DNA of 45,049 bases from Actinomycetota bacterium (GTDB lineage: Bacteria > Actinomycetota > Thermoleophilia > RBG-16-64-13), in the NCBI GenBank assembly GCA_012514635.1, contig JAAYZX010000016.1, forward strand, positions 1-45,049. The letters run 5' to 3'. The notes under the pieces are model-generated. The model did not search any database, was not told the origin of the DNA, and saw only the letters and a program-made list of their open reading frames with translations. Numbering within the stretch: position 1 is the stretch's first letter; every line of letters begins with the position of its first letter. Below are positions 2,112-5,544 of the stretch, piece by piece. A program made the position numbers and the translations under genes.

Positions 2112-2171
2112 GCGAGACGTGCGGGAAGCTCGGGCAACCTAACTCCCCACTATGCAACAACGAAAACAAAA

Positions 2172-2196
2172 AGCCCCGCGGTGCGGGGCTTTCTTC
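2172..2196. terminator. Rho-independent terminator
   Basis: AGCCCCGC-ggt-GCGGGGCT followed by TTCTTCTTTCTT; A-tract on the other side, so possibly bidirectional. Confidence 0.8.
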
Positions 2197-2207
2197 TTTC
2201 TTATAGA

Positions 2208-2244
2208 TGAGCCGTGCTGGATTCGAACCAGCGATCATCGGATT
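2208..2244 (-). other. Truncated tRNA-Lys 3'-end copy (att-like remnant)
   Basis: TGAGCCGTGCTGGATTCGAACCAGCGATCATCGGATT is identical to 5472..5508 except for one base, then diverges. Confidence 0.85.
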
Positions 2245-2420
2245 CGTAGGCCACTCCAGGCCTGTAGAAAGGCCCAGTCGAACGGGAAGGGTGTGGATGA
2301 GATCGGACTCATGATGCTCTGACTGTGAGACTAGAATTCCTAAATATAGTCACAATTCGGCAAGGCCCCGGCTCCGGCTGGAGCCTTGGCTTTCTTGGCG
2401 GACCACGTTAGTGTCCACAG

Positions 2421-2518
2421 AAGTGGTGTACGAGTCCCCCGGTCACCTGAGGTCTTGAGATGAGGTGACCACTGCTCCATCCTCGAGGATGGAGCGATCG
2501 AGAGTTCGTACACCACTT
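2421..2518. repeat. Nested inverted-repeat structure (three-way junction)
   Basis: Outer 13-bp stem AAGTGGTGTACGA (2421-2433) / TCGTACACCACTT (2506-2518) encloses GGTCACCT..AGGTGACC (2441-2470) and perfect palindrome GCTCCATCCTCGAGGATGGAGC (2474-2495). Confidence 0.85.
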
Positions 2519-2813
2519 GACAGGACGTGGCCTATCATGACCTAAAAAGTTGACCCAAAATCTCAAATCACCGCCCAAATATCATTTGTGCGTTAAGGGA
2601 AACGCCAACGAGCAAGTGGGGTGTTCACTTTTTTAGAAAGGGTGTTCATTCTGACGTTTGATGTTCAATAAGGGCATAGAAAAACCTCGGCAGAGTCGAT
2701 TCAGCTCATGTCTAGGTTTTTGATTCCTTGTAGGGGTGTTGTTACCATGGATAATATGGATTATATTCAATATTGCCCTAGATATTGGTTCTACAAACTA
2801 CTAAGAGGAGAAT

Positions 2814-4322
2814 ATGATGAAGACCCATCATCTAACACTTATTTTACTTCTGGTATCTGTGTTTGCCTTGGCCACAGGTTGCGCGGGTGAATCTGAACCA
2901 ACACCAGAATCGTCAGCAGTCATTACCACAGAGACAGTTGTTACTACAGAAACGACAGAGGCGCCGGTTGAAACAACAGTCCCTGAAATACAAGGGGAGC
3001 CCGAGCTGGTGTGGAGCCACGAACACGGGCATCCTATCTCCAGTGTAGCCACATCCGGCGAAACCGTAGCTGTAGGGGAGTTCAAAGTAACTTACATCCA
3101 CCACCTCTCGGATGGCTCGCTGATGGATGTTCTGATACATGAGCATGACGTGGAGGATATGGAGTTCTCCACCGACGGAAGACTCCTAGGTGCGGGCCAG
3201 GGATATTACGGTGTGCTTCTCACGGATCTCACAGACGACGCCGAACCGCAGACCGTTGGAAGCGGGCACAACAGCCGCCTCGCCTTTTCTCCTGATGGTC
3301 TTCATATAGCGACAGGTAATCGCGACGGGGTCGTTTGGATCTGGGAGCTTGACGGTCTGACCCAGACGGCCACTCTCGAAAACCCTGATGTTGCAAGCAA
3401 TACGGTTACACAAAGATGGCTGCTCGCCATCGATTACCATCCGGCAGGCGAACTGCTGGCAGCAACACACACTGACGGCACCATCTATATCTGGGATATC
3501 GCGAACCAAGAAGTAGTCCAATCACTGCAATATGGTGCCGACGTAACAGCAAACAACACCTTCCGCTTTTCGCCAGACGGCAACGGAATGGCTTGTGCAG
3601 TAACGGAGAGCGGTGAACAGTTGATTCGACTGATGGCAGTCGATGGCGGTGATGCGATACGCGATATGGTCGTGCCGGAACGCGTGATGGACCTGAACTT
3701 CTCTCCCGATGGCAGCTTACTGGCAGTCGCGTCCCGCGAGGCCACGACCATATGGGATGTTGCTTCCGGGGAGTTGATCTCTACCCTAGATCAGACCATA
3801 ACCCCGCCCGACAATACACCGAAAGCATTGACGTTCACGCCCGACGGAGGGCACCTGGCCGTAGGGCTCTGGGACGGAACGATCGAGTTGTGGCGGCTTC
3901 CCGGGGCTGAACCGATAGCTCCTCCGCCAATCGATATGCGCACACCCCCGCCGTTGCCCGGCGATGTTCTATTCGACACCGGCAGCGCAGAGTTGAAGCA
4001 GGAAGCGTTCGTTGAGCTGGAAGCGCTCGCGGAAGAGCTCTATGCCAACTTTACGAAAGCCACGATCACGTTCGTCGGTCATACAGACAGTCGGGGCGAC
4101 GCACAGAGCAACCTTCAGCTCTCGATCGACAGAGCGCAAGCTATCAAAGACTGGTTCCAGGACTGGGCTGACGCAAAGGGCGCCAGTGGATGGGTCTTGC
4201 TTGTCGACGGCAAAGGTGACACCGAGTTGAAAGTGCCCGATGTCGATATCGAAGGCAACTTTCTTGATGATGCCGGTGCATTGAACCGTCGCGTGGAGAT
4301 AGAGATAGACACCGATGAATGA
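2814..4322 (+). CDS. Lipoprotein with WD40-like beta-propeller and C-terminal OmpA-like peptidoglycan-binding domain
   Basis: Signal/lipobox LLLVSVFALATGC; repeats such as LAFSPDGLHIATGNRDGVVWIWEL; OmpA motif VLFDTGSAEL...ITFVGHTDSRGDAQSNLQLSIDRAQAIKDWF; AGAGGAG RBS. Confidence 0.85.
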   Translation: MMKTHHLTLILLLVSVFALATGCAGESEPTPESSAVITTETVVTTETTEAPVETTVPEIQGEPELVWSHEHGHPISSVATSGETVAVGEFKVTYIHHLSDGSLMDVLIHEHDVEDMEFSTDGRLLGAGQGYYGVLLTDLTDDAEPQTVGSGHNSRLAFSPDGLHIATGNRDGVVWIWELDGLTQTATLENPDVASNTVTQRWLLAIDYHPAGELLAATHTDGTIYIWDIANQEVVQSLQYGADVTANNTFRFSPDGNGMACAVTESGEQLIRLMAVDGGDAIRDMVVPERVMDLNFSPDGSLLAVASREATTIWDVASGELISTLDQTITPPDNTPKALTFTPDGGHLAVGLWDGTIELWRLPGAEPIAPPPIDMRTPPPLPGDVLFDTGSAELKQEAFVELEALAEELYANFTKATITFVGHTDSRGDAQSNLQLSIDRAQAIKDWFQDWADAKGASGWVLLVDGKGDTELKVPDVDIEGNFLDDAGALNRRVEIEIDTDE

Positions 4323-4407
4323 TGATGACCAATCGGGATACTACGGCCCGGCTGCAAAGGCTCCTGAGATGCAGGTCAAAACAAAGATGGAAGGAGGAGC
4401 TGTAAGA

Positions 4408-5037
4408 ATGAAAAGACTGACCATCATGATCTTGGCGACTTTGGTGATTCTGGCTTTGGCTGGATGCGGAGGGGATGACGGAACAGCTGGTTCCGCTGGC
4501 TCTACTAGCGATACCGCTACAAAAGTCGATAGCTCCACATCGGACGCAGCCCAAGGCGGCGCTGATGATGCAGAACAGAACAAAGAGACGGCGCAGTCTC
4601 ATGACAGCGTACCTGATCCAGATGTTCCTGTGTATCCGAATGCGGAAGAGGTATACAACGATAAAGGCACAATATTCTACGTGACCACTGATTCAGGTGA
4701 GAAAGTAAGCAAATTCTATGAAGGTCATTCGTACCTTAACGAAGGTAAGAAAGCCCGTAATATGGGTGAAGGATTTTATGAGTATCGGACGCCCCTGGTA
4801 GAGCTTGTGCTGGCTGTTTCGAGGGGTTACACGGCGAGGGACAGTGCTGATGAGAATCCTCAGGAAGAGATAGGCGAGATGAATGCTTATATCGATGAAT
4901 TCGGGGGACTATCGTCAGTGCTTATTCTCGATGTTAGTGCCGATTCACAAATCAGAGAACAGATGATCGAGCACTATTCTTCGGACATCCCTCTTGATAA
5001 AACGCTGATCATGTTCGGATTCCAGGACAAATTGTAG
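4408..5037 (+). CDS. Putative lipoprotein of unknown function
   Basis: MKRLTIMILATLVILALAGCGGDDG lipobox; GGAGGAGC RBS upstream of ATG 4408. Confidence 0.7.
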   Translation: MKRLTIMILATLVILALAGCGGDDGTAGSAGSTSDTATKVDSSTSDAAQGGADDAEQNKETAQSHDSVPDPDVPVYPNAEEVYNDKGTIFYVTTDSGEKVSKFYEGHSYLNEGKKARNMGEGFYEYRTPLVELVLAVSRGYTARDSADENPQEEIGEMNAYIDEFGGLSSVLILDVSADSQIREQMIEHYSSDIPLDKTLIMFGFQDKL

Positions 5038-5179
5038 GAAACGTACTCTGCATGTTCGACCGGGCAGCGAGGTTGGTGTGTGGCCGCTGGGTCTCGGTCT
5101 TGTCCGATGATGACACTGTGGATTTTTCAGTCGTCATGGCGGGGGATGAGGCGACAGAGTGCCGACAGGGGCTGCACTG

Positions 5180-5412
5180 GAGAGGAGACACATCGACTCT
5201 ACCCAGCCTACTTATTGGCCGCTACCACAGGGATGCGCCGTGGAGAAATCCTGGGACTGAAATGGGGCAATGTTGATCTGGAGGCCAAGACTATCTGGAT
5301 CAGGGAGACTCTGATCAGTGTTGGCTACAAGGTTCGCCTCTCGCAGACCAGGTTGCCAAGCTGGTATTCGGCAGCTGTGGTTAGCATTTGGTTAGCAAAT
5401 GGCGCGGTCTGA
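5180..5412 (+). pseudogene. Tyrosine recombinase/phage integrase remnant
   Basis: Frame contains AATTGMRRGEILGLKWGNVDLEAKTIWIRETLISVGYKVRLSQ, typical of tyrosine integrase catalytic domains, then skips to a C-terminus-like tail directly abutting tRNA-Lys; N-terminal part and the RHRRY-containing part are missing. Confidence 0.75.
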
Positions 5413-5441
5413 GCAGCCGCCCAACTCGTGCAGAACAGAAA

Positions 5442-5464
5442 AGCCCCGCAAAACGGGGCTTTTC
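5442..5464. terminator. Terminator downstream of tRNA-Lys (possibly bidirectional)
   Basis: AGCCCCG-caaaa-CGGGGCT flanked by AAAA and TTTT. Confidence 0.75.
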
Positions 5465-5471
5465 TTATAGG

Positions 5472-5544
5472 TGAGCCGTGCTGGATTCGAACCAGCGACC
5501 ATCGGATTAAAAGTCCGGTGCTCTACCAGCTGAGCTAACGGCCC
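5472..5544 (-). tRNA. tRNA-Lys (anticodon TTT)
   Basis: Reverse complement GGGCCGTTAGCTCAGCTGGTAGAGCACCGGACTTTTAATCCGATGGTCGCTGGTTCGAATCCAGCACGGCTCA; anticodon loop ACTTTTAAT. Confidence 0.95.

Follow-up and report, generated by a model that had tools for sequence, protein, structure and literature searches.

A 98-bp three-way inverted-repeat structure as the very probable remnant of an internally deleted IS256-family element

The window analyzed here, a 45,049-nucleotide stretch of contig JAAYZX010000016.1 from a thermoleophilian Actinomycetota bacterium, contains a short non-coding element that is almost certainly what an internal deletion has left of an IS256-family insertion sequence, and is probably immobile. 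In relatives, the insertion sequence is ≈1.4 kb long. A sequence-only reading of this DNA had described a 98-bp layout in which an outer stem encloses two hairpins, and had proposed that it could be a structured RNA, a replication or transfer origin, or a MITE with IS256-like ends. The three-way layout is real, and the IS256-like end sequences quoted at the time are present in the window. The feature extends beyond the 98 bp, however: the homologous unit is 126 bp long (2407–2532). The features are listed in Table 1, where the + strand given to the element is the direction of the lost transposase gene.

Table 1. Features of the IS256-family remnant and its surroundings (window positions).
Feature	Position	Strand	Basis or remark
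Whole internally deleted IS256-family element, GTTAGTGTCC...GGACGTGGCC	2407–2532	+	Ends match those of L052 and L053, where they lie ≈1.3 kb apart
Left terminal inverted repeat, 27 bp	2407–2433	+	Aligned to left ends in G015, G002 and G014
Right terminal inverted repeat, 27 bp, outward TTGACA	2506–2532	+	Aligned to right ends of full-length elements
Leader hairpin 1 (GGTCACC...GGTGACC)	2441–2470	+	Fold, and counterpart in intact parents just inside the left end
Perfect 22-bp palindrome at the deletion junction	2474–2495	+	Left GCTCCATCCTCGAGGATGG plus right GAGGATGGAGC
8-bp microhomology GAGGATGG, inferred deletion junction	2485–2492	+	Present on both parental sides
Left att-like repeat (tRNA-Lys fragment), 48 bp, bounding the island with the IS remnant	2197–2244		96% identical to 5461–5508

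Two ends of an insertion sequence and their probable junction

Homologs were sought in 61 genomes with a 146-bp query region. The left part of the element (2407–2492, 86 bp) and the right part (2485–2532, 48 bp) matched intact relatives at their opposite ends, with left and right matches at 38–122 and 1401–1449 in G015:C65, and at 1398–1484 and 2765–2808 in G002:C2, in each case ≈1.3 kb apart on the same contig. The open reading frame between the matched ends encodes a transposase of ≈408 amino acids in both relatives, with E values of 5.6e-136 and 5.3e-132 for Pfam Transposase_mut and scores of 347 and 335 bits for NCBIfam transpos_IS256 (cut-off 150). Since the two matches are separated by ≈1.3 kb around a transposase gene, the window sequence corresponds to the two ends of an IS256-family element whose central part is missing. 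When compared with the relative L052, the window was identical to the left end from 2450 to the junction at 2492, and 2482–2532 matched the right end apart from two mismatches and two 1-nt gaps. A counterpart of hairpin 1, altered in sequence, was found in L052, L053, L055, L056 and L061.

Two clean copies of the element are flanked by 8-bp target-site duplications (TSDs), AGAGAAAC in G002 and TCCGGCAA in G092, which delimit the ends of the element as GTTAG...GGCC. Applied to the window, these ends give the 126-bp unit, and the outer stem of the 98-bp structure is formed by the two arms of the terminal inverted repeat, now close to each other. Full-length family members align with the 27-bp ends on both sides, and these ends share a TGGTGTA(C) motif and an outward TTGAC with IS256, IS1542, ISEae1 and ISCth4. 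(ISCth4 is reported to have an 8-bp TSD and a TGTAAA motif (PMC7780238).) The parents of the window copy also carry the Transposase_mut/IS256 transposase and, in clean copies, 8-bp TSDs. The window copy differs from the family in that it has neither a transposase gene nor the 8–9-bp TSD (flanks CGGACCAC and TATCATGA), and in that only 72 bp separate its 13-bp arms. Because the transposase gene is absent, we class it as a deletion derivative and not as an insertion sequence. The intact relative in G015:C65 has no TSD either. The same genome yielded no intact parent; its assembly is 98.2% complete in 129 contigs and of a kind from which repeated IS copies often drop out. We infer the parent element from relatives in other genera.

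In the fold of 2421–2518, the outer stem comprises 14–16 pairs and includes the perfect 13-bp inverted repeat that had been described (2421–2433 with 2506–2518). Hairpin 1 has an 8-bp outer stem, and hairpin 2 (2473–2496) contains the perfect 22-bp palindrome GCTCCATCCTCGAGGATGGAGC, also found as described. The fold energy was −51.9 kcal/mol, compared to −29.6 ± 3.1 kcal/mol in dinucleotide shuffles (z = −7.2), and no shuffle was as stable as the native sequence. Perfect 13-bp inverted repeats with arms no more than 100 nt apart occurred at a mean of 0.02 per mononucleotide-shuffled window.

The palindrome can be traced to both parental ends. The left end of L052 reads ...CACTGCTCCATCCTC-GAGGATGG-CTTAAATC..., while the right end reads ...ACTA-GAGGATGG-AGCATCAGAGTTCGTACACC..., so that the left copy of GAGGATGG is followed by CTTAAATC and the right copy by AGCATCAG. 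The window tracks the left end through GAGGATGG, and the right end thereafter. Left GCTCCATCCTC-GAGGATGG joined to right GAGGATGGAGC gives exactly the palindrome, which neither parental side carries in perfect form alone. Because the parent carries the joined sides as subterminal repeats complementary to each other, we consider the palindrome a by-product of the deletion. The two copies of GAGGATGG lie in the transposase leader and just 3' of the stop codon, and a deletion between them, presumably by slippage or short-repeat recombination, would have removed ≈1.3 kb, including the whole transposase gene. The surviving outer stem would be the terminal inverted repeat, the expected binding site of the transposase, and hairpin 1 would be a leftover of the transposase leader. 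As the window copy has no TSD, it may have been either deleted in place or inserted in deleted form.

The suspicion that the structure occupies a non-coding position inside a relic element was borne out. It sits in a decayed, degenerate island integrated at tRNA-Lys, with 48-bp att-like repeats and an integrase fragment. The right att-like repeat (5461–5508) overlaps an intact tRNA-Lys gene (5470–5544). Between the repeats lie a lipoprotein-like gene for a WD40/OmpA-domain protein (2814–4322), a predicted protein with no Pfam match (4315–5037) and, within an open reading frame at 5080–5412, the phage-type integrase fragment. The decayed island as a whole (2169–5544) spans ≈3.3 kb, and a terminator-like hairpin is duplicated beside each repeat (2169–2192 and 5439–5462). 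The remnant most likely has no present function.

Mobility and other readings of the locus

The proposal of a MITE with IS256-like ends held with respect to ancestry, as the ends match those of full-length IS256-family elements, but not with respect to mobility. Like the IS-derived internal-deletion MITEs MITEPsy1 (PMC3189936) and MITEAba12 (PMC6382973), the 126-bp unit is short and non-coding and bears the terminal inverted repeats of a known transposase system. Its size is within the bacterial MITE range (PMC3189936), and the 27-bp repeats are almost intact on both sides and retain the TGGTGTACGA motif. Unlike those MITEs, however, the window copy shows no evidence of transposition: it lacks a TSD, and a search for additional copies returned only the one in its own genome, where a MITE would be expected in several. 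A one-mismatch pattern for the 12-bp core of the terminal repeat matched 19 times in that genome, compared to 12 times for the reversed control pattern. The assembly yielded no transposase with matching ends. The only near-full IS256-type transposase found there, that of C124, shares 54% identity with the L052 transposase, and the right end of its element is clearly different (GAGTTACACCACAAGAAGGGACTTGACC). A pattern scan of the genome and viral contigs for the leader motif GTGACCACTGCTYCATC gave mostly chance matches; six had IS ends nearby, all in already known relatives and none in a second short derivative. No blastn match was found in phages or E. coli genomes, and plasmids gave only weak partial matches, mostly in Klebsiella (E about 0.4).

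Among the loci examined there was no second short derivative, with one ambiguous case. The left-end copy in G010 (L054) matches the window to 2500, eight bases beyond the junction, and is accompanied by a weak right-end-like stretch, which would favor a MITE, but the right-end similarity was not significant (120 of 2000 shuffles were equally good). A bona fide MITE, mobilized in trans by an IS256-family transposase now or formerly, is an unlikely description of the unit. With a single copy, no TSD, no cognate transposase found and no other short derivative, the window copy is probably a dead deletion derivative; it is MITE-like in origin, and its status as a MITE is not established. The G010 sequence itself (L054 1028–1170; G010:C68:14827 onward), with a left end and eight junction-passing bases like those in the window, could be a degraded sister of the derivative.

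That the locus encodes a functional, cloverleaf-like structured RNA is very improbable, even though the fold is so stable and hairpin 1 is conserved among intact IS relatives. The two hairpins go back to leader and subterminal sequences of the IS, and the three-way shape is accounted for by IS anatomy plus the deletion. No Rfam family reached the gathering threshold over the structure, and relaxing the threshold to E ≤ 5 gave one overlapping, chance-level hit (E 2.6); scans of the window and of the full-length relatives returned only two tRNAs at the gathering threshold. No promoter-like site was found directly upstream. Both hairpins together with a closed outer stem occurred in no homolog among the loci examined, and covariation was analyzed on the parental leader alone. 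That the structure is an origin of replication or transfer for the relic island, as the inverted repeats near its left edge might have suggested, can be dismissed almost completely: there was no rep or relaxase among the neighboring genes examined, and as the source of the sequence an origin is refuted, the sequence being that of IS256 ends.

Leader hairpin and complementary 3' repeat in intact relatives

We folded 36 leaders of intact IS256-family elements from Actinomycetota, Pseudomonadota and Bacillota. They came from Thermoleophilia relatives, Streptomyces, Pimelobacter, Rhodococcus, Arthrobacter, Gordonia, Sphingomonas, Rhizobium, Pseudomonas, Sphingobium, Enterobacter (ISEae1) and Enterococcus (IS1542). 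The leader segment from about −68 to +8 was predicted to fold around the ribosome-binding site (RBS) and start codon of the transposase. The mean fold z was −3.9, with values below −2 in 31 of the 36, and the mean pairing probability across −14 to +3 was 0.71. In 20 aligned leaders, the stem covering the start codon was formed in 88% of cells, compared to 14–61% when it was shifted by one to three columns. This stem showed two-sided changes at four pairs (12 cells), a pair count reached by 35 of 500 shuffles. Coding constraint contributes to the conservation of the stem, whose 3' arm extends into the first codons, and one control of the method can be exceeded through relatedness alone. The RBS/start-codon hairpin was observed at 95–160 of L052 and in the leaders of L053, L159–L163, L175–L178 and L180–L191, in three phyla; no Rfam match to it was found in the loci scanned. 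One of these elements, L176 (NZ_CP129141.1, Streptomyces sp. HUAS CB01), is a 1,428-bp “plasmid” that consists of one complete IS256-family element, GGTTGCGTCC...GGACGTGACC, and is either an assembled IS circle or an assembly artefact.

The intact elements also carry, after the transposase stop codon and before the right terminal repeat, a sequence complementary to the leader's 5' arm. In L052, 102–113 is complementary to 1404–1415, and equivalents were present in most of 29 other elements, including G015 (TGCTCCATCCTC with GAGGATGGAGCA), G216 (CGCGTCATCCTC with GAGGATGACGCG), Arthrobacter (GCGTGATTCTTGG with CCAAGAATCACGC) and IS1542 (TACAATGTTTT with AAAACATTGTA). The complementarity was element-specific. 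Scored against their own partners, 19 elements gave a mean match of 9.47, compared to 6.48 when the partners were permuted (highest of 1000 permutations, 7.89); for 11 further elements, the corresponding values were 9.27 and 5.89 (highest of 2000, 7.91). The observed means were thus reached by none of the 3,000 permutations, although several elements of the second set (L182, L185, L188 and L189) match only weakly. L184 was excluded, as its right end was unrecognizable.

A repeat that varies and yet stays complementary would be easier to reconcile with pairing between nucleic acids than with a fixed site for a protein. The 3' repeat could alternatively serve in transposase binding; in ISCth4, the IS256-family transposase binds subterminal base pairs 14–25 of the terminal repeat (PMC7780238), and these fall outside the leader-complementary repeat. 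Judging from sequence comparison and predicted folds, the leader hairpin and the 3' repeat may constitute a conserved translational switch. A more specific version, which we put forward tentatively and regard as somewhat doubtful, is a conserved device in which the hairpin sequesters the RBS and start codon and the 3' end of the transcript, through the co-varying repeat, opens or tightens transposase translation. The 3' repeat could act from the same transcript, from an antisense transcript or from one derived from a circle. An antisense RNA has been described at the start region of IS256 in Enterococcus faecalis (PMC10266640), and the transposase of ISPpu9 is regulated by leader structure and small RNAs (PMC8450116). 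As in the intact parents, the RBS of ISPpu9 likely lies in a 5'-UTR structure, and its regulatory RNA is encoded both upstream and downstream; ISPpu9 is a different insertion sequence, however, whereas the IS256-family parents are known here from sequence and fold predictions alone. A literature search, with subscription papers mostly outside its coverage, returned no description of this paired repeat in the IS256 family, and the novelty of the side result is uncertain.

The locus itself is of little importance, a fossil whose appearance follows from the anatomy of its parents. It does carry the lesson that a perfect palindrome in non-coding DNA may be what a deletion between complementary repeats leaves behind. 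The parental leader and its 3' repeat could matter more than the locus: if the proposed pairing is true, it would offer a testable route to understanding how the widespread IS256 family limits its own transposase.
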